This document shows, piece after piece, positions 15,128 to 30,850 of a stretch of 64,000 bases of DNA; the stretch's first letter is position 1, and every line of letters begins with the position of its first letter. Origin of the DNA: Teredinibacter turnerae (GTDB lineage Bacteria > Pseudomonadota > Gammaproteobacteria > Pseudomonadales > Cellvibrionaceae); contig NZ_CP149817.1 of NCBI RefSeq assembly GCF_037935975.1, positions 806,001-870,000 of the forward strand. Direction: 5' to 3'. The translations under genes and the position numbers were made by a program. A model generated the notes under the pieces. It worked only from the letters and a program-made list of their open reading frames with translations, had not been told where the DNA came from and made no database searches.

Positions 15128-15139
15128 CGTCGGCCAATT

Positions 15140-15220
15140 AACACTTGTCGGGGTGCCGTTGTACGGCTGAGAAATACCCGCTGACCTGATCTGGATAGTA
15201 CCAGCGTAGGGAACAAGTTG
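15140..15220 (+). ncRNA. TPP (THI-box) riboswitch
   Basis: It contains the two invariant blocks of the thiamine pyrophosphate aptamer: GGCTGAGAAATACCC around 15165-15179, and ACCTGATCTGGATAGTACCA around 15184-15203 followed by GCGTAGGGAA. The P1 stem is ACTTGT (15143) with ACAAGT (15213). It lies between the promoter and thiD, so TPP would shut off thiD-thiC. No clear terminator hairpin follows; the thiD start is 45 bases downstream, so the switch probably acts on translation initiation. Confidence 0.95.
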
Positions 15221-15263
15221 CCCGCCTTGCTTGCGCCTGCTTCTTCCCCCGTCACAACACCCA

Positions 15264-16121: not shown

Positions 16122-18098
<1,977 letters not shown>

Positions 18099-23012: not shown

Positions 23013-23394
23013 TGCTCACATTACATTCGTAGTGCCGAATTTTTCAGGCACATCTTAAAGCACATTTTAAAAAGCCTCGCCAAATTATTTTGCTGAGGCT
23101 TTTTTATATCTGGCTCGATTCCATTAAAAGTGCTTGTTTAATTGGCTGCATCGCCGTTGTAGCCACGCCTGAATGCGAAGAGCGTGCGCCCGAAATTACC
23201 GAATCGGCAGGAATGTACCTTTGGATATCTCGCTATCTCTAATATCCTTCAACCTATAGTTTTTCGATTAACTAAATGCCTATCGGTCAATTAATTCATT
23301 TATGCGTAGTGACAAAAATGCCTGGGCATGTGATTAGGCTATTTCAATCCTACTGCGCATCCGCATCGTATTTTTGATAAAAACTGGCCGAACC
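23013..23394. other. Convergent intergenic region parE / alaX
   Basis: About 380 bases. It contains the parE terminator at 23069-23106. The remaining AT-rich 290 bases show no gene, and no obvious terminator for the minus-strand cysteine operon. Confidence 0.5.
23069..23106 (+). terminator. Rho-independent terminator of parE
   Basis: AAAAAGCCTC (23069-23078) pairs with GAGGCTTTTT (23095-23104) and runs into a T-tract. The A-run on the other side makes it potentially bidirectional. Confidence 0.88.
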
Positions 23395-24123
23395 TCACCC
23401 CCAGCTGATTTCAATTCGGCGATTGCTTTTGCTCACTTTTTTAATTTTTGTACATACTACGGTATTTATTTCACTGGTGGTTTTTACATGGGTGCCGCCG
23501 CAAGGTTGGGTGTCGATTCCCTCGATTTTTACGAGTCGGATGCGGCCGTTATAGGCGGGTGGGGCGACGTCGGCGGACTTTATCAGGTCTGTGTTACTGG
23601 CAAGTTCTTCTGGGGTAATGCTGGCGGGTGTGACGGCTGCGGCTTTTTGAATCAGGGCGTTGAGTTCTTCGGTAATCCCTTCTTTAGTAACACTAGGCTC
23701 AGGCAGGTCGAAGTCCAGGCGCGCTTTGTCTTCACTGATATTGCAGCCAGTTACGGGAGCATCGACCAGCGCACATAGCAGATGCAGGCACGTATGAAAT
23801 TGCATGTGGCGGTAACGACGGTCCCAGTTCAGCGTTTGTACCGCAGAGAGGCCAATGTGTTCCTCGCTCAGCGGTGTGTCCAACTCCAGCCAGATTTGTT
23901 GGGTCTGCTCTCTATCTCGGTAGGTATTGGTGACGTTTCGGCTGGTGCCGTCGGGAAACTCCAGGGTACCCGTATCGCCAGGCTGACCGCCACCAAGCGG
24001 ATAAAAAATGGTTTTATCAAAAAGTGCGAAATTCTCTTTAATTGCAAGTAAACTGGCTTCCAGCGTTTTGCTGTAAGGTTCGTCATCGTAGATGGATTGG
24101 GTGGTTAATTCATGCAGACTCAT
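23395..24123 (-). CDS. AlaX-type alanyl-tRNA editing protein
   Basis: About 242 residues. It matches the stand-alone editing domain related to AlaRS: an N-terminal FYPLGGGQPGDTG segment, zinc ligands H110-x3-H114 (HTCLH) and C208GGTH212. AlaX proteins hydrolyse Ser-tRNA(Ala) or Gly-tRNA(Ala) in the cytoplasm. Its start overlaps the serine acetyltransferase stop by 14 bases, so it is the last gene of the cysteine operon and probably coupled to it. Presence of a serine-editing factor in a serine-to-cysteine operon is suggestive: it may guard against a mischarged pathway amino acid. That link is inference. Confidence 0.88.
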   Translation of the reverse strand: MSLHELTTQSIYDDEPYSKTLEASLLAIKENFALFDKTIFYPLGGGQPGDTGTLEFPDGTSRNVTNTYRDREQTQQIWLELDTPLSEEHIGLSAVQTLNWDRRYRHMQFHTCLHLLCALVDAPVTGCNISEDKARLDFDLPEPSVTKEGITEELNALIQKAAAVTPASITPEELASNTDLIKSADVAPPAYNGRIRLVKIEGIDTQPCGGTHVKTTSEINTVVCTKIKKVSKSNRRIEISWG

Positions 24124-25126
24124 TTAATCGTCCTTTCGCATTTATGGTCATGTTACGCAGCATATGGGTTAACTGTGGCGGGCTGATTAATGTAATTTCG
24201 TGCCCATCGTCTTTTAGTTGCAGGTGTAGCGGTTCCGCATAACTGGAGTGATCAATATCTTCTACGAGTTCCATTTTTAACACAACCACATGCTCGTGAG
24301 AGGACTGGGGAATAACGTTAATGGCGGATATTTCTATGTGGTTGTTGTCTACTATGCTAGCGGACAATCGAGTAAAGCCGTTGCATAGCAGTACAACTTC
24401 ATTTTGGTGGACCAGCGAGCCATACACTTTCGTAAACGGCGGCTGTGCGGGCAGGTGGGATTTATTAATCTGGATTTGGTTGACAATAGAAACCCGTGTA
24501 CCAGCGGGAATACTTTTTGTGACGACGCAATTGGGGCTGATAAAAACATCGTCGCCAATATCAATTGGGCCAAGAAGGCGCGCGTTAGAGCCGATCTGCA
24601 CGCGATCCCCAAGCGTTGGGTGGCGCTTGTCAGAAGCATTGCCCGAGATGCCGTAAGCGCCGAGAATAACGCCGCCGAGAATATAGCAATCTTTGCCAAT
24701 GCAGCAGGTTTCGCCAATGACGGTACCGAAGGCGTGATCCAGTACGAACCGTTTACCAATGCGCGCCGCGTGATGGATATCGATTCCCAAAGTACGTTTA
24801 CTAACTTCAGAGATCCTTACCGCCAAATGTTCCATTCCGGGTTCGTGAGCGCCGGCTAGCCAGAAAAAGTGGGCGATACGGTAATATACAATCGCCAAAA
24901 AAGATGATGAGTTCTCCAAAAGGAGATCCAACCGACCACCGGCAGCTGGGTCTTTGTCGGCAAACGCTTGCAGATCATCCATGAGATCCCGAACCAGTGT
25001 GCTCGACGTGCCAAATGGAAAAAGGCCCATATCTTTAATGCACTTTATTTCGAACCCTGTGAGGTGTTGATAAATAATACTGGTTAGTTTGCTTTCCATA
25101 CTCATGGCAGTTGTGGAAAAAGTCAT
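24110..25126 (-). CDS. Serine O-acetyltransferase with C-terminal extension
   Basis: About 338 residues. The N-terminal helical part precedes a left-handed beta-helix of hexapeptide repeats (about residues 115-212). Catalytic signatures of CysE/EpsC are present: GIDIHHAARIG and DHAFGTVIGET (His 131), then GDRVQIGSNARLLGPIDIG. It acetylates serine with acetyl-CoA to give O-acetylserine for the cysteine synthase gene directly upstream. The unusual feature is about 125 residues after the beta-helix (from residue 213) that ordinary enzymes lack; they look like a small alpha/beta or beta-rich domain I do not recognise. AAGGTGG precedes the chosen ATG. Confidence 0.85.
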   Translation of the reverse strand: MTFSTTAMSMESKLTSIIYQHLTGFEIKCIKDMGLFPFGTSSTLVRDLMDDLQAFADKDPAAGGRLDLLLENSSSFLAIVYYRIAHFFWLAGAHEPGMEHLAVRISEVSKRTLGIDIHHAARIGKRFVLDHAFGTVIGETCCIGKDCYILGGVILGAYGISGNASDKRHPTLGDRVQIGSNARLLGPIDIGDDVFISPNCVVTKSIPAGTRVSIVNQIQINKSHLPAQPPFTKVYGSLVHQNEVVLLCNGFTRLSASIVDNNHIEISAINVIPQSSHEHVVVLKMELVEDIDHSSYAEPLHLQLKDDGHEITLISPPQLTHMLRNMTINAKGRLNESA

Positions 25127-25146
25127 AACCCCACCTTGGCGCGTGC

Positions 25147-26067
25147 CTACTCAGAAAAATAATTCAGATACGAATCTACCTGGTCATAGGCCAGGGCGAT
25201 AACATTGCTGTTTTGTGGTATTTCTCGTTTAGCGAGTTGTGAAATAGCAACTAGGTTGGCGGCTGACGATAACCCAAGACTGATCCCTTCGTTGCGAAGA
25301 ATACGTTTGACCATGGATTTACAATCGGCCGTGCGAATTTGTACTGTATCGTCCAGCAGGCCAACATTAAGCACATCTGGCACTATGCCAACCGACAATC
25401 CCTGAAGGTCATGGGGCGCATGGATATTATTTCTAAGGTCGCAACCTTCTGGCTCAACGCCAATGACTTTGAGTTCAGGCCAGCGTTTTTTCAGTATTTC
25501 TCCCACACCGGTAATATGGCCTCCGGTGCCTATGCCGCCGACAAAATAGGCCAATCCCTGACGAGAGAAATCTTCAACAATTTCCTGTGACGTGGTTTCT
25601 CTGTGAGTTTGGGGGTTAGCTGGATTTTTTTGCTGATTAAGCATCACGTAATCGGGATTCGACAGCTGAATTTCCCAGGCTAATTCGCCGTGCGAGTTGT
25701 TACCTCGCGTACTGTCTGACAAAATAACATCAGCCCCGTAAAGGTGGAGTAAGCGTTGTTTTTCTACGCTGTAATTATCGGGAATGACCAGCACAAGCTT
25801 ATAGCCTAAAATATTTGCTGCCATCGCCAGTCCTATTCCGGTATTTCCACCGCTAGGCTCCAGAATAACCTGACCACTATTGGGTTTAAGTATGCCGCGC
25901 TTTTCCGCGTCTTTAATCATACCCAACGCAATTCTGACTTTATGGCTACCCCCGGGGTTAAAGCTTTCCATTTTTAAAAAAACATTGACACCCAGTTCGC
26001 GGGAAAGCTTTTGCAAAGTGATAACCGGGGTATTGCCGACCGTTTCTAAAATATTCTGATAAATCAT
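25147..26067 (-). CDS. PLP-dependent cysteine synthase (CysK/CysM family)
   Basis: About 306 residues of fold-type II. PLP lysine K43 lies in NPGGSHKVR, a variant of the usual NPxxSVKxR. EPSGGNTGIGLA is the substrate-binding loop (usual TSGNT), and GGIGTGGHITGVG binds the cofactor phosphate with His where Thr is usual. It beta-replaces the acetyl (or phosphate) of activated serine with sulfur. The neighbouring sulfur-carrier fusion and JAMM gene point to a protein thiocarboxylate as sulfur donor, as for mycobacterial CysM, rather than free sulfide. The product could be cysteine or a related thio-amino acid; the active-site variants leave this open. Confidence 0.85.
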   Translation of the reverse strand: MIYQNILETVGNTPVITLQKLSRELGVNVFLKMESFNPGGSHKVRIALGMIKDAEKRGILKPNSGQVILEPSGGNTGIGLAMAANILGYKLVLVIPDNYSVEKQRLLHLYGADVILSDSTRGNNSHGELAWEIQLSNPDYVMLNQQKNPANPQTHRETTSQEIVEDFSRQGLAYFVGGIGTGGHITGVGEILKKRWPELKVIGVEPEGCDLRNNIHAPHDLQGLSVGIVPDVLNVGLLDDTVQIRTADCKSMVKRILRNEGISLGLSSAANLVAISQLAKREIPQNSNVIALAYDQVDSYLNYFSE

Positions 26068-26081
26068 CCAGCGGTGTTCTC

Positions 26082-27512
26082 CTAATAAATTGGCATGCTG
26101 GTGTCTATATCACGGGTCCAGCCAACCATACCTTCGCGCAGCACATAAACTTTGGAGAAGCCGTGTTTGAGCATAAGATCAGCGGCGCGCTCGGCACGTC
26201 TTCCGGCCAGGCAGATGATGTAGTGGGTTTGTGATTTGTCGAGTCGGAACAATTGGTCTTCCAATTCGCCCAGTGGGATATTGATGACTTCCGGCAATAC
26301 GCAAATTTCGAGTTCTTGCATATCGCGTACATCCAGAAGTACGGCGTCTTGCATTAGGGTTGGGTCTTGCATCATGTGTGCAAGGTCGGTAGTTTGAATA
26401 TAGTGGTGTTCAGTCAACATGGTGAGCTCCGAGCTGCTGTCGCTGCAAGTTTGGGGGGTGTAAGTGAATTGTTTAATTGCATCTTTGTTCGCACAGGCTT
26501 TGCAATGCGGGTCTTTTTTAACTTTTACGCTGCGGAAGTTCATGCCTAGCGCATCAAAACGCAATAATTTCCCAGCGAGAGACTCGCCCATGTCCAACAA
26601 AATTTTTACCGCCTCAGTCGCCTGTATGGTGCCTACGACACCGGGCAATACGCCAATAACGCCACCAGCGCTGCAGTTAGGTGCAAGCTCAGCCGGTGGG
26701 CTTTCGGGAAATACACAGCGGTAGCAAGGTCCGCCGTCGTGGTTAAACACACTTATTTGGCCGTCGAATTGGTGAATCGAACCTGAAACCAAGGGTTTTT
26801 CAAGGAGTACGCAGGCGTCGTTTACCAGGTAGCGGGTGGCAAAATTGTCAGAGCCGTCAATAACCAAGTCGTAATCCGTAATTATGTCGAAAGCGTTATC
26901 GGGCGAGAGGGCGCAAGTGTGGGTTTGAATATTGAGATGTTTATTAATATCGAGTAATCGGGTTTTAGCCGATTCGACTTTAAGTTCGCCAATGGTGTTG
27001 TGACCGTGCACAATTTGTCGTTGTAGATTGCTCTCCTCGACGACATCAAAATCGATGAGCCCCAGCGTTCCCACGCCAGCTGCTGCTAAGTAGAGGGCGA
27101 TAGGCGAACCTAAACCGCCGGTACCAATAATTAAAACGCGCGCGGCTTTCAGTCTGCCCTGGCCTTTGCGACCAACGTTCGGCAACAACAAGTGGCGGGA
27201 GTAGCGCTCGACTTCCTCTTTACTCAGTTCCGCCGGCGTCAAATCTATGCCACCGGATGTGGCGAGTAGAATTTCTACCGTAGAATCGCTTGCCACCGAC
27301 TGGGCGAGGCTGCCGTGTTCGTCGTTTATGACCAGCATAAAGTGATTTTTAAACTCCCCGTTGGGGTGAAAAAAGTGGGCTTTTAATGCATCCACTTGCT
27401 CACAAACAGCGACTAATGCATCTTCGACAGTACTTGCCGCAGGCACGTCAAATTCGTTAGTGTCGAGTTTTACAATTTTCGCGACGCGATCTGGAACAAT
27501 GATCTTAGCCAT
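26082..27512 (-). CDS. Fusion: sulfur carrier (ThiS/MoaD-like) + E1-like adenylyltransferase + rhodanese
   Basis: About 476 residues from the ATG at 27512, preceded by GGAG; the frame is open far upstream, but that part overlaps the JAMM gene and has no homology. Residues 1-88 are a beta-grasp carrier ending in SGG (G87-G88). Residues 97-345 are a MoeB/ThiF E1: GTGGLG (130-135), catalytic-type C280 (NCSAGG), and zinc pairs C263xxC266 and C337xxC340. Residues 370-476 are a rhodanese with active-site loop C434LAGRR. The E1 adenylates a carrier C-terminus and the rhodanese donates sulfur to make a thiocarboxylate. It corresponds to mycobacterial CysO fused to MoeZ. The carrier GG is internal, so it needs release or acts in a different way. 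Confidence 0.88.
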   Translation of the reverse strand: MAKIIVPDRVAKIVKLDTNEFDVPAASTVEDALVAVCEQVDALKAHFFHPNGEFKNHFMLVINDEHGSLAQSVASDSTVEILLATSGGIDLTPAELSKEEVERYSRHLLLPNVGRKGQGRLKAARVLIIGTGGLGSPIALYLAAAGVGTLGLIDFDVVEESNLQRQIVHGHNTIGELKVESAKTRLLDINKHLNIQTHTCALSPDNAFDIITDYDLVIDGSDNFATRYLVNDACVLLEKPLVSGSIHQFDGQISVFNHDGGPCYRCVFPESPPAELAPNCSAGGVIGVLPGVVGTIQATEAVKILLDMGESLAGKLLRFDALGMNFRSVKVKKDPHCKACANKDAIKQFTYTPQTCSDSSSELTMLTEHHYIQTTDLAHMMQDPTLMQDAVLLDVRDMQELEICVLPEVINIPLGELEDQLFRLDKSQTHYIICLAGRRAERAADLMLKHGFSKVYVLREGMVGWTRDIDTSMPIY

Positions 27513-27522
27513 ACACAATCTC

Positions 27523-27981
27523 CTACTCTGTTTCCGTTTGTAAAAATCCATGCGCATCGTACTGGGCGATACAGGTGTAATCTCCGTCACGATAGGCGAA
27601 CAGTTTTGCTCCACGCGCACAGCCGTTGTTAATGTCCGCAACAAGATAGTTAACGTCGTAGATCGGCTCCCCCATGTAGAGCGCCTTGTCTTTATCTTCG
27701 CTGCTGAAATACGCCCCCACGTCGGGGTGCGAGTGGTAAATGATGGTCGCGGGATTGGCGGAGGAAAAGCTTCCCTCAAGAGCACGCACATCTTTGATGG
27801 AAAAGCTGTATCCGTTTTTTGCTGTGCGGGGATAAAGCTCAGGGTCACGTTTGTTAAGGTCGTTTTGAATATTAGTACCCTTGTAGACCGTTCCGTCTGC
27901 CGCAACAAATCCGCAGGACTCTTCTGGGTAGGTTTTCTCGCCGTGAGCGTAAATGTTCGTTAGCAAGGTATTGTCTAACAT
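27523..27981 (-). CDS. JAMM/MPN metallopeptidase (Mec/QbsD-like)
   Basis: About 152 residues. The complete JAMM zinc motif is present: E21 in EESCG, then H83-S-H85-P and S93-x-x-D96 (HSHPDVGAYFSSED). In mycobacteria the homologue Mec cleaves cysteine from CysO; in thioquinolobactin synthesis a relative trims the carrier to expose its Gly-Gly. Here it is the first gene of the operon, 10 bases before the carrier/E1/rhodanese fusion, so either role fits: release of the carrier after G88, or hydrolysis of the carrier-cysteine adduct. The ATG at 27981 has AGGCG upstream; a TTG at 28002 is less likely. Confidence 0.88.
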   Translation of the reverse strand: MLDNTLLTNIYAHGEKTYPEESCGFVAADGTVYKGTNIQNDLNKRDPELYPRTAKNGYSFSIKDVRALEGSFSSANPATIIYHSHPDVGAYFSSEDKDKALYMGEPIYDVNYLVADINNGCARGAKLFAYRDGDYTCIAQYDAHGFLQTETE

Positions 27982-28380
27982 CGATTGTCGCCTATAATTC
28001 AATGTGTATTTCGTTGCTAAAAAGTGTTACGGTGTTAACACTTCTTGCTAATCACTCTTAATTATTTGATTAAATGAATAATCCTATTTGTTTAATCGCG
28101 AGCGCTTTAAATGCCGCCGAAAATATCGAAATTTTCTGATATTTCAATGGCTTAACATTGCATTCGGGCAATGGAACTGCTTCTCTGCACTGCCGGTTAA
28201 CTTAGTGATTTTTATTGCCAGGCTGATAGAAACGACTGGCCCCTCTTTTTTGAGCGCGCGCTCACCCCTTCGCAATTAAGATTGCAAATCTGACATATCG
28301 GAATTTGAACCCGTAACAGGTTTTACATTTTTGAAAAGATTTTTTTCTTGGTAATCCGTTCTTTTTAGATTTTTATGGCT
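27982..28380. other. Leader of the cysteine operon / spacer to eamA
   Basis: About 400 bases between the JAMM gene (minus) and the end of the exporter gene (minus). It contains a perfect 22-base dyad at 28022-28043 just before the operon. The rest is AT-rich and shows no supportable gene; a 63-codon plus-strand frame at 28088 lacks a ribosome site and coding character. Confidence 0.5.
28022..28043. promoter_or_regulatory. Perfect inverted repeat, candidate operator of cysteine operon
   Basis: AAGTGTTA-cggtgt-TAACACTT, 8-base arms and 6-base spacer, 41 bases upstream of the JAMM start codon. Position and symmetry suit a dimeric repressor site; the regulator is unknown, the MocR-type gene nearby being one candidate. 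Confidence 0.5.
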
Positions 28381-29355
28381 TTACCTTCTATATGCCGGTT
28401 TTGCTGACCGCTCTGTGCCGTACATGTTTTCCAGTCGCCTTTTTAAGGTGTCGATTGGGAGCTTTGTTAAGCCAAAACCGATCAGCATAAGTGAAGAGAA
28501 GATGAAGAATTCCGGCGTCACAGTTTTGTTTTCGTATAGCGCGCCAATGCCGACCGCTACCACGGGAAAAATAATGAAAATAAACGACAAAATAATGGGG
28601 CTCATTCGTTTGAGCAGGTAAAAATACACGATAAAGCCACCCGCGGAAGCGACTACCCCCAGGTATAGCAAGGCTACCCAGCTGGCCTGGCTCGCAGCGC
28701 TCAGATCTGGTTTTTCAACCACAAGGCCTGCGCCACAGAGCAGAAATCCAGCGAGTCCGACTGGAAGGGTATTAAAAGTAAATACGTTGATGTCGGAAGC
28801 ATTTTTTTTGGAAAAGACATACAAGAAGCCATGCATCATGGCCGCACTGAGAATAGCCAGCACTCCTGTGAGCCCCTTGTGCGTGAAAATCAGTCCTTCT
28901 GATTTAAGGATTACTACCAGGCAACCAAACCCGATAGTAATGCCGATGATCTGGTTGATTTTTATTTTTTCGTTTAGCAGTAGCGCTGAAAATATGATGG
29001 AAAAAATGGGCATGGTACTGAAAAGAAGCGATGTAAGCCCAGATGAAACATATTGTTCACCGTAACTAATGAAGTAGTAGGGAACGGAAAAATAAAACAC
29101 TGTGAGCAAAACAAAAAAAATACGTCGATTTTTCGGAAAAAATACGGGCGCTCGCGCCAGTAAACAAATAATGAGCAAAAACGGGAATGCAATTACAAAT
29201 CTGGCGCCTGAGGCGGTGAGCGGCGGAATGCTGTCTACCGCGACTTTAATGCCGAGCCACGTCGTTCCCCACGTGAGGCACACAACAGAATAGAGAATGG
29301 CGGTAACCAGGGAACTCTGCCAAAAAATTCGGAGTTGTCGTTGGGTTATAGCCAT
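28381..29355 (-). CDS. EamA/DMT-family exporter
   Basis: About 324 residues with roughly ten membrane helices in two EamA halves (helix 1 around CLTWGTTWLGIKVAVDSIPP, the classical EamA opening). The C-terminus is basic. E. coli EamA exports cysteine and O-acetylserine, and other members export various amino acids. Here the gene sits upstream of the cysteine operon on the same strand and is divergent, by 70 bases, from the MocR-type regulator. Export of the operon product or of excess acetylserine is therefore plausible. AAGGA precedes the ATG. Confidence 0.85.
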   Translation of the reverse strand: MAITQRQLRIFWQSSLVTAILYSVVCLTWGTTWLGIKVAVDSIPPLTASGARFVIAFPFLLIICLLARAPVFFPKNRRIFFVLLTVFYFSVPYYFISYGEQYVSSGLTSLLFSTMPIFSIIFSALLLNEKIKINQIIGITIGFGCLVVILKSEGLIFTHKGLTGVLAILSAAMMHGFLYVFSKKNASDINVFTFNTLPVGLAGFLLCGAGLVVEKPDLSAASQASWVALLYLGVVASAGGFIVYFYLLKRMSPIILSFIFIIFPVVAVGIGALYENKTVTPEFFIFSSLMLIGFGLTKLPIDTLKRRLENMYGTERSAKPAYRR

Positions 29356-29425
29356 TTTTTTTGTCCTTGAAAAAAAGTTTTTTACTTTAAAAAAACGTCG
29401 CGGAGCATCTTAGTATGGAGATTCT

Positions 29426-30850
29426 ATGAGGGTCAACGAGAATAATGACACCGTGTCAATTGCCGAATTTTTGAAGGATTCATTAAATAAGGAATCGGGT
29501 CACATTTATTTGCGCATGGCGCAGGGGTTTAAACAGGCGATAAATCAAGGTGTCGTAAAAGCCGGATTTCGACTGCCTGCGCATCGAATCCTGGCGGATG
29601 CACTGGATGTAACTCCCGGCACGGTATCTCGGGCATATCGCGAGCTGGCAAAAATGGGATTGGTGGTTTCGCGTGTAGGCGATGGCACTTATATTAATGA
29701 TGAAAAAAGTCGGCAGCGATTGGATGATGAATTCACCAATGTGCCTGCAACGTATGCGCACCTCGTTGACCTTAGCCGTAATTTAGCCATCGATTTTGGC
29801 ACTGCCAATTTAATTTCTCAGGCGATGGATGCCTTGCAAAAAGATCAATCGCAATTGGCGACGCTGATCGGCTATACACCGGATACCGGTATCGACGCTT
29901 ATCGTCAGAGTGGCGCGCTTTGGATGAACCAGTGCGGTGTCTCTGTTGCGGTAGACGAAGTGGTCTGTACCAATGGCGCGCAGCACGCATTGATGTGCGC
30001 ATTGATGACATTACTGAAAGAAGGGGAGGCACTTGCGGCAGAATTTTTAAGCTACCCGGGGATGGTTTCGCTCGCCAAACGATTGCGCTTGCGGTTGGTG
30101 GGTATCGCCATGGATGAGCAGGGCATTTTACCTGCGGCGCTGGATGCCGCCTGTAATAAACAAAAAATATCCACGCTTTATTGCACTCCGTCGTTTCAAA
30201 ATCCAACTTCCGTTATTTTGTCGAGGGAGCGGCGTGAGGCCCTGGTGGATGTGTGCAACCGACACAACATAATGATAATTGAAGATGGCGCTGGAAGTGC
30301 GCTTGCTCCTGCGCAAGTTCCAACGTTGAAAAATCTTGCTCCAGAACGTACGGTATTTATTTCCAGTTTAAGTAAAGTGATTGCGGCAGGAATACGTGTC
30401 GGCTACATGGCGCCGCCTCGCTCGCTGCTTGAACATGTTGCCAAGACTCTGCGTGCAACCAGTTGGATGCCTAACCCGCTGGCGCACGGCATCGCCTCTC
30501 ACTGGATCAATAGCGGTATTCTTGCAGCCGTTGCCGAGCAGCAGAAAATTGAGATTCAACGCCGTCATATGCTGGTTGTACCTCACCTTAAAAGCCTGGA
30601 ATACAACGCGCATCGTCACTGCGGGCAGCTTTGGGTAAAAGTCCCTGCGCAATGGCGCACAGGGGAATTGGTTCTTGCGTTAAAAAAGCAGGGTGTGTTG
30701 GTGTTACCCTCGAGTGCATTCTGTGTCGATAAGCGCGCAGCGCCCAGATATATTCGCGTGTGCCTGACGGGGGCGGTCGATGATGCGAGCCTGGTGCGTG
30801 CGGCTCAATGCATATCGGCAACAATTCAAGGTGCACAGGAGGCGAGTTGA
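29426..30850 (+). CDS. MocR-type transcriptional regulator (GntR HTH + aminotransferase fold)
   Basis: About 474 residues. An N-terminal GntR winged helix spans about 25-92 (AGFRLPAHRILADALDVTPGTVSRAYREL), then a fold-type I aminotransferase domain. It keeps N259 (FQNPTS), D287 (IEDGAG) and the Schiff-base lysine K317 (SSLSK), so it should bind PLP or a PLP-amino acid adduct as effector. GGAG precedes the ATG. It is divergent from the eamA-type exporter, as expected for a regulator of that gene; it may also control the cysteine operon. The EDGAG segment replaces the more common EDDYD. Confidence 0.9.
   Translation: MRVNENNDTVSIAEFLKDSLNKESGHIYLRMAQGFKQAINQGVVKAGFRLPAHRILADALDVTPGTVSRAYRELAKMGLVVSRVGDGTYINDEKSRQRLDDEFTNVPATYAHLVDLSRNLAIDFGTANLISQAMDALQKDQSQLATLIGYTPDTGIDAYRQSGALWMNQCGVSVAVDEVVCTNGAQHALMCALMTLLKEGEALAAEFLSYPGMVSLAKRLRLRLVGIAMDEQGILPAALDAACNKQKISTLYCTPSFQNPTSVILSRERREALVDVCNRHNIMIIEDGAGSALAPAQVPTLKNLAPERTVFISSLSKVIAAGIRVGYMAPPRSLLEHVAKTLRATSWMPNPLAHGIASHWINSGILAAVAEQQKIEIQRRHMLVVPHLKSLEYNAHRHCGQLWVKVPAQWRTGELVLALKKQGVLVLPSSAFCVDKRAAPRYIRVCLTGAVDDASLVRAAQCISATIQGAQEAS

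Follow-up and report, generated by a model that had tools for sequence, protein, structure and literature searches.

A conserved seven-gene cassette of Teredinibacter turnerae combining a fused sulfur carrier, a cysteine synthase-like enzyme, a tRNA editing protein and an exporter

Closest described systems and the Teredinibacter cassette

In mycobacteria, cysteine is formed from a protein thiocarboxylate by separate proteins, namely the carrier CysO, which has a free C-terminal Gly-Gly, the JAMM peptidase Mec, the pyridoxal phosphate (PLP)-dependent synthase CysM and the E1-rhodanese protein MoeZ. Operon type 4c of Iyer, Burroughs and Aravind (2006) associates a ThiS/MoaD protein, an E1-rhodanese, a JAB peptidase and a cysteine synthase in proteobacteria (Paer, Rpal) and others (PMC1779556). 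Here, we analysed a locus of Teredinibacter turnerae located in a window of 64 kb (NZ_CP149817.1, positions 806001-870000) of the single-contig, 5.35 Mb genome G000. This locus, hereafter the cassette, encodes the four core functions of type 4c and, in addition, a serine acetyltransferase (SAT)-like protein, an AlaX-type tRNA editing protein, an EamA exporter and a MocR-type regulator. Its seven genes are a real conserved unit, which probably serves (at a rough probability of 0.58) for the biosynthesis and export of, and self-protection against, an O-acetylserine-derived sulfur amino acid, cysteine or an analogue.

As in type 4c, the four core functions are gathered in one operon, but the carrier of the cassette is fused to the E1-rhodanese, and often to the JAMM peptidase, and the PLP enzyme belongs to a distinct clade. 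The passages located in the type 4c account make no mention of SAT, AlaX, an exporter or MocR, and 'alanyl' and 'serine acetyl' gave 0 matches in that paper (PMC1779556). The mycobacterial pathway shares a carrier, a JAMM peptidase, a PLP synthase and an E1-rhodanese with the cassette (PMC11361707), and the earlier note on this DNA, made from the sequence alone, had recognised the same set in it, in other form; this goes too far, as the PLP enzyme is of a different clade and the carrier Gly-Gly is internal. Moreover, mycobacterial CysM uses O-phosphoserine (PMC11361707), whereas the SAT of the window suggests O-acetylserine, and the fused carrier, the exporter and the editor are further differences.

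The thioquinolobactin, PDTC and thioplatensimycin pathways also comprise a carrier, an E1-type enzyme and a JAMM protease, and their capped carrier is trimmed by a protease (PMC6006322), but they sulfurylate the carboxylate of a siderophore or antibiotic, where the cassette has a PLP enzyme and a SAT. The closest parallel in logic, by analogy and not by kinship, is fluorothreonine biosynthesis, in which the clusters for this small amino acid retain the tRNA deacylase FthB and the exporter FthC (PMC7408626). Its chemistry is different, and FthB is related to ProXp-ST1, of another editor family. The D-cycloserine cluster contains a serine acetyltransferase and an exporter and, to our knowledge, no sulfur carrier. 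Its O-ureido-L-serine synthase (PDB 3x43, third in the list of PDB matches) is likewise an enzyme of cysteine-synthase fold in a secondary pathway, but has GGSVK and TSGNVG where the cassette enzyme has GGSHK and GGNTG.

The earlier note knew of no description of this exact combination. This has to be narrowed, since the core four-gene proteobacterial operon already stands in row 4c of PMC1779556; the full cassette was found described nowhere in the literature searched, whose coverage was thin for subscription papers, so that absence from print is not shown. Apparently new are (i) SAT, AlaX, EamA and MocR as members, (ii) the internal Gly-Gly of a carrier fused to the E1-rhodanese, with JAMM often fused as well, (iii) the separate PLP clade and (iv) carrier-free sister clusters.

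Gene order and co-occurrence

Genome-wide searches covered 293 genomes of the host order, and a separate phylum sample was used (n=398). A profile scan of genome contigs with the JAMM alignment confirmed at least 279 relatives, of which the best 80 were retained: 70 from Pseudomonas, one each from Paraburkholderia, Vreelandella, Parendozoicomonas and the cyanobacterium Atlanticothrix, and six from uncultured genomes. Together with six other JAMM-positive genomes of the order, they make up a set of 86 loci (L016-L101), in which L020 and L091 are apparently a single locus entered twice. In the window, all seven genes are present with intact motifs; on the minus strand the reading order is EamA, JAMM, carrier-E1-rhodanese, PLP enzyme, SAT and AlaX (block 23395-29355). 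The features are as follows, with E-values or other evidence in brackets:

29426-30850, plus strand: MocR-type regulator with a GntR (1.1e-11) and an aminotransferase domain (3.6e-25), divergent from EamA and adjacent in 78/86 loci
29356-29425: EamA/MocR divergent control region, a 70-base gap (coordinates; compared across 79 regions)
28381-29355, minus strand: EamA (DMT-type) exporter (Pfam EamA 8e-44), in 80/86 loci
27523-27981, minus strand: JAMM/JAB peptidase from its ATG start, with an alternative TTG start at 28002 (Prok-JAB 2.4e-12)
26082-27512, minus strand: carrier-E1-rhodanese fusion of 476 amino acids (profile searches)
27249-27512, minus strand: ubiquitin-like sulfur-carrier domain, residues 1-88, with an internal Gly-Gly at its end (homologues)
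26499-27203, minus strand: E1/ThiF domain, residues 104-338 (ThiF 5.4e-82)
26112-26387, minus strand: rhodanese domain, residues 376-467 (Rhodanese 9.9e-13)
25147-26067, minus strand: GGSHK-type PLP beta-replacement enzyme of cysteine-synthase fold (PALP 3.4e-69; clade features in 79/82 loci)
24110-25126, minus strand: SAT-like protein with an extra C-terminal domain (cysE 2.9e-42, under the NCBIfam cut-off; Hexapep 9.3e-14)
24137-24436, minus strand: beta-rich C-terminal domain of SAT, residues 231-330 (pLDDT 76-90 per ten-residue block)
23395-24123, minus strand: AlaX-type free-standing tRNA editing protein (AlaXM 2.5e-55, under the NCBIfam cut-off; tRNA_SAD 5.2e-14)
23387-23405, minus strand: terminator-like hairpin at the operon end (weak: 13 such sites in the region versus 10.1 in shuffles)

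The complete seven-gene set occurs in identical order and orientation in 76 of the 86 loci. By tblastn, JAMM was found in 86 loci, the PLP enzyme in 82, EamA and the carrier in 80 each, E1, SAT and AlaX in 79 each, and MocR and the rhodanese in 78 each, while the nine flanking genes of the window have no match in these loci save in L021 (4/9). The ten exceptions to the complete set are L019 (without MocR), L085 (rearranged), L089 (internal deletion), L093 (the cyanobacterium) and L096-L101 (uncultured). EamA lies beside JAMM in 80/86 loci, L093 included, and in L012 and L014 the two genes overlap; in the window's genus, they are 379 bases apart (TTG start of JAMM). In the window, the AlaX and SAT genes overlap by 14 bases.

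Among the 293 genomes of the order, JAMM is present in seven; the six besides G000 have the remaining cassette genes nearby, apart from the MocR missing in L019. The PLP clade is found in the same seven genomes. SAT was detected in ten, with an almost full-length match in the seven cassette genomes and a match to the acetyltransferase core only in the other three; AlaX was detected in 21, at E 6.2e-119 or better in the seven and at 8.7e-87 or weaker in the other 14. In the phylum sample, JAMM and the PLP enzyme coincide in 6/398 genomes. Chance neighbourhood is ruled out by the gene order and by this genome-wide co-occurrence. The unity of the set, as claimed in the earlier note, is thus borne out by intact motifs, profile matches, conserved order and co-occurrence, including the check on relatives that it had named beforehand (same order in 76/86 loci; same 7/293 genomes). 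The regulator, which it counted in the cluster, is adjacent but lies outside the operon, divergent on the plus strand. Across 11 loci, the pairwise identities of six genes are correlated (0.92-0.97), but they track species kinship and are little proof of co-evolution.

The cassette is patchy, being present in G000 and G269 of the host genus and in 0/11 other family members sampled, and its block has a GC content of 48.0% versus 53.5% for the window. Both observations fit a horizontal gain, which they do not prove. A plasmid-borne element was rejected, since neither the PLP enzyme (E<=1e-60) nor JAMM (1e-8) nor P0001, a PLP enzyme of the sister clusters (1e-30), has a match among 72,556 plasmid records.

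Some single loci and neighbouring regions gave further observations. In L089 (Pseudomonas sp. 21; L089:10455-11713), a frame ends inside E1 and is followed by the second half of AlaX only; rhodanese, PLP enzyme and SAT have been lost, a natural loss. In the cyanobacterium, a 184-amino acid open frame between SAT and EamA (L093:8368-8922) is HD-domain-like by eye and has no NCBIfam match. Comparison of the MocR-EamA gap over the 79 regions established no motif in common with the window; TCAAT repeats, possible MocR sites, were seen by eye in L016, L022, L023, L084 and other Pseudomonas loci, and none in the window. Rfam gave nothing near the cassette. Elsewhere in the window, a thiamine pyrophosphate (TPP) riboswitch (15139-15229, plus strand, 74.4 bits) upstream of a ThiC-like open reading frame (16179-18098) corresponds to ordinary thiamine regulation.

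Carrier fusion, PLP enzyme and sister clusters

The window's JAMM protein carries the motif HSH-x7-S-x2-D, as do 79/79 extracted relatives; its residues, like those of the AlaX motifs, presumably have the roles usual in their families. PHROGs matches of JAMM to phage tail proteins were set aside as ordinary domain sharing. The profile match of the carrier is weak (SAMP1, 4e-5); its assignment is backed by homologues, by a free-standing version of 88 amino acids in L093 and by a confident model region (residues 152-234) in the L016 fusion. In 79 of the 80 carrier loci, A[AT]SGG closes the carrier, the exception being L093 (C-terminal AAGGYS), and in most cases five variable residues separate the Gly-Gly from E1. 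Indeed, an internal Gly-Gly in a carrier frame joined to E1 is found in the window and in 78/80 carrier loci, and the mycobacterial arrangement, a free C-terminal Gly-Gly on a separate carrier, was not found, the L093 carrier being capped by YS. Capped carriers typically require a protease, such as QbsD in thioquinolobactin biosynthesis (PMC6006322), and JAMM presumably cleaves after the Gly-Gly of the carrier, within its own chain in the four-part version.

This four-part version (JAMM-carrier-E1-rhodanese in a single frame) is encoded in 60/86 loci, and a three-part fusion with a separate JAMM in 16/86. In the remaining loci, the four parts are split in two frames (L071, L080), the fusion is truncated (L089), the carrier is free (L093) or no carrier was detected (six loci). 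The rhodanese domain is fused in 76/80 carrier loci. Reading of the fusion sequence identified GTGGLG and CYRC/CKAC in E1 and CLAGRR in the rhodanese. When the 621-residue fusion of L016 was modelled with AlphaFold (mean pLDDT 75.2, pTM 0.46), the carrier, E1 and rhodanese regions were confident, and the linker after the Gly-Gly (residues 236-260) had a pLDDT below 50; placing the carrier tail within this model was dropped because the inter-domain confidence was too low. Foldseek matched the model to Uba4, MoeB and ThiF.

The PLP enzyme shares 35% identity with E. coli CysM and 37% with E. coli CysK, and scores under the NCBIfam cut-offs. Its motifs were compared with those of both E. coli enzymes, of host paralogues and of Poribacteria enzymes. 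GGSHK (which we take to stand at the PLP lysine, the roles of the other loops being likewise assumed), [ST]GGNTG, GNNSHG, GTGGH and C[DS]L occur together in 79/82 loci and are missing only in three Poribacteria enzymes. The canonical CysK/CysM signature (S[VI]K, TSGNTG, GTGGT/GTTGT, GERYL/GDRYL) is replaced in the window by SHK, SGGNTG, GTGGH and SYL. The Poribacteria enzymes are encoded near a JAMM gene, with a carrier-like gene read in L097, and yet are canonical cysteine synthases; the motif changes therefore belong to the cassette and not to carriers as such. In L097 (L097:7049-10708), a canonical cysteine synthase, a PAPS reductase, a carrier-like protein ending in AGGRFL and a JAMM protein make up a variant of this machinery for sulfate assimilation. 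The enzymes of the cassette and its sister clusters were split from the canonical ones in an unrooted tree of 21 rows (support 98/96, long branches). On these sequence grounds, the PLP enzyme is assigned to a clade apart from ordinary cysteine synthases.

Elsewhere, the host genome encodes a CysM (70% identity to E. coli CysM), a CysK-like protein (42% to CysK), two CysE proteins above the cut-off and a sulfite reductase, as the earlier note had proposed to look for. Since these ordinary genes are retained, the cassette is an additional pathway. In Pseudomonas aeruginosa, CysK and CysM serve the ordinary sulfide and thiosulfate routes (PMC12895370).

In the SAT, the cysE profile (144 bits against a cut-off of 210.65) matches the core, and the usual tail is swapped for a domain of about 100 amino acids; the DH and RHP active-site residues are conserved in the alignment, by eye. 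This C-terminal domain is present in 16 of 17 aligned relatives (absent from L085) and corresponds to no Pfam family. No known fold could be assigned to it, Foldseek giving no PDB match at E<=1e-3 (best, immunoglobulin-like, 3.4e-3). AlaX is a free-standing tRNA_SAD protein with the HxxxH and CxxxH metal site of its family, HxxxH and CGGTH being conserved in 78/78 extracted relatives. Of the three tRNA_SAD frames in the host genome (669, 873 and 242 amino acids), only the 242-amino acid AlaX is of synthetase-independent size. Substrates of AlaX proteins include Ser- and Gly-tRNA(Ala) (PMC11295145), so the mischarging guarded against may involve serine, cysteine or some unusual small amino acid.

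Sister clusters, here termed type II as opposed to the carrier-containing type I, were sought from the three genomes in which SAT matched by its core only (G219, G176, G069). The SAT gene of G219 (L158) lies outside any such cluster. In G176 and three genomes of its genus (L139, L155, L156, L157), a divergent MocR-type regulator is followed by AlaX, an MFS exporter, a PLP enzyme and SAT, whereas G069 (L138) encodes SAT, AlaX, MFS and PLP enzyme with no MocR among the open frames. The PLP enzyme of G176, P0002, found a match in 4/14 genomes searched, and that of L138 in its own genome only, among 12 searched. The five type II stretches (13-15.5 kb) have no match to the JAMM, carrier-E1-rhodanese or EamA of the window at E<=1e-8, and in all five the MFS protein occupies the exporter place. 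Their PLP enzymes carry GGSHK, GGN[TF]G and C[DS][LTS] by pattern (5/5), and the two sequences inspected keep GGSHK, TGGN and EP[ED]GCD. A protein of 211-264 amino acids, nitroreductase-like by eye, is encoded downstream of SAT in L139, L155, L156 and L157 (81-90% identity to the L139 version).

Furthermore, L085 (Paraburkholderia) is a mosaic with a type I core, whose AlaX and SAT are 42% and 51% identical to those of L138 versus 25% and 46% to those of the window. Judging from these identities, the editor has been replaced in L085, not lost.

Proposed function and alternatives

SAT and the PLP enzyme together point to O-acetylserine chemistry. From the genes, we infer a pathway in which (i) SAT would convert serine into O-acetylserine, (ii) JAMM would cleave after the internal Gly-Gly to give a carrier with a free Gly-Gly end, (iii) E1 would adenylate this end, the rhodanese domain assisting its conversion to a thiocarboxylate, (iv) the GGSHK enzyme would turn O-acetylserine into aminoacrylate, to which the carrier sulfur would be added, (v) after an S-to-N acyl shift, JAMM would set free the product, either cysteine or an amino acid closely similar to it, (vi) EamA would export it, (vii) AlaX would clear the product, or accumulating serine, from mischarged tRNA and (viii) MocR would tune expression. 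An editor and an exporter are conserved beside the biosynthetic genes in types I and II alike, as expected of self-protecting clusters. Since they recur around an O-acetylserine enzyme with or without a carrier, they suggest an exported, potentially mischarged amino acid and not a cysteine reserve. A related thio-amino acid as the product, an alternative of the earlier note that stays open, is given more weight here than there.

Several points weigh against this proposal. It is built from genes and sequences, and on loci selected by JAMM similarity, mostly from Pseudomonas. A Mec-like action of JAMM would give plain cysteine, which needs no special editor. AlaX proteins of other clades occur in 14/293 genomes without the cassette, so that the presence of AlaX alone is a weak argument, which rests instead on its fixed place and its replacement in L085. 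In L093, AlaX, E1 and MocR are all missing from the neighbourhood, as is MocR in L019. Finally, the PLP tree no longer resolved the canonical enzymes from those of types I and II once three remote rows had been added.

An overlapping and broader view, held tentatively and at somewhat below even odds, is that of a modular, hitherto undescribed family of clusters for secreted non-proteinogenic amino acids derived from O-acetylserine, defined by the new GGSHK clade, with AlaX as self-resistance. Type I would take its sulfur from a self-excising JAMM-carrier-E1-rhodanese polyprotein, as ubiquitin is released from precursors, and type II, without carrier, would use another nucleophile.

The best surviving alternative, although unlikely, is a second, mycobacterium-like pathway that would supply the cell itself with ordinary L-cysteine under stress, with EamA as an overflow valve and AlaX acting against serine mischarging only. 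The carrier, the E1-rhodanese, JAMM and the cysteine-synthase fold are like the parts of the M. tuberculosis pathway, whose CysM uses CysO and whose genes moeZ, mec, cysO and cysM are turned up under oxidative and hypoxic stress (PMC11361707); the action of AlaX proteins on Ser- and Gly-tRNA(Ala) would also agree with it (PMC11295145). However, the PLP enzyme falls outside the canonical clade, cysE, cysM, a cysK-like gene and sulfite reductase are already in the genome, and a dedicated exporter and editor persist even in carrier-free clusters. Cysteine under stress, as put forward in the earlier note, thus leaves the kept exporter and editor, the AlaX replacement in Paraburkholderia and the sister clusters unexplained.

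A protein-tagging system made up of carrier, E1 and JAMM, beside a PLP/SAT/AlaX product unrelated to sulfur as in the sister clusters, is very improbable. The carrier is ubiquitin-like, E1 resembles Uba4 and the sister clusters lack any carrier, but the rhodanese is fused in nearly all carrier loci and JAMM, a carrier and a PLP enzyme of the GGSHK type stand together even in the cyanobacterium. Two adjoining units, with MocR-EamA as an independent exporter pair beside a cysteine operon, are scarcely tenable, since the 379-base EamA-JAMM gap of the window and the lack of MocR in L019 and L093 are set against the overlap of EamA with JAMM in L012 and L014 and their adjacency in 80/86 loci, cyanobacterium included.

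If the proposed biosynthesis, export and self-protection unit is real, many soil and plant Pseudomonas would secrete an unnamed small sulfur amino acid made via a protein thiocarboxylate, with a tRNA editor as safeguard, and an operon type left uncharacterised in 2006 would gain a function. It would also provide a bacterial example of a JAMM peptidase excising a ubiquitin-like carrier from the polyprotein to which this carrier belongs, and a GGSHK enzyme beside SAT, AlaX and an exporter would become a search key for a wider cluster family.

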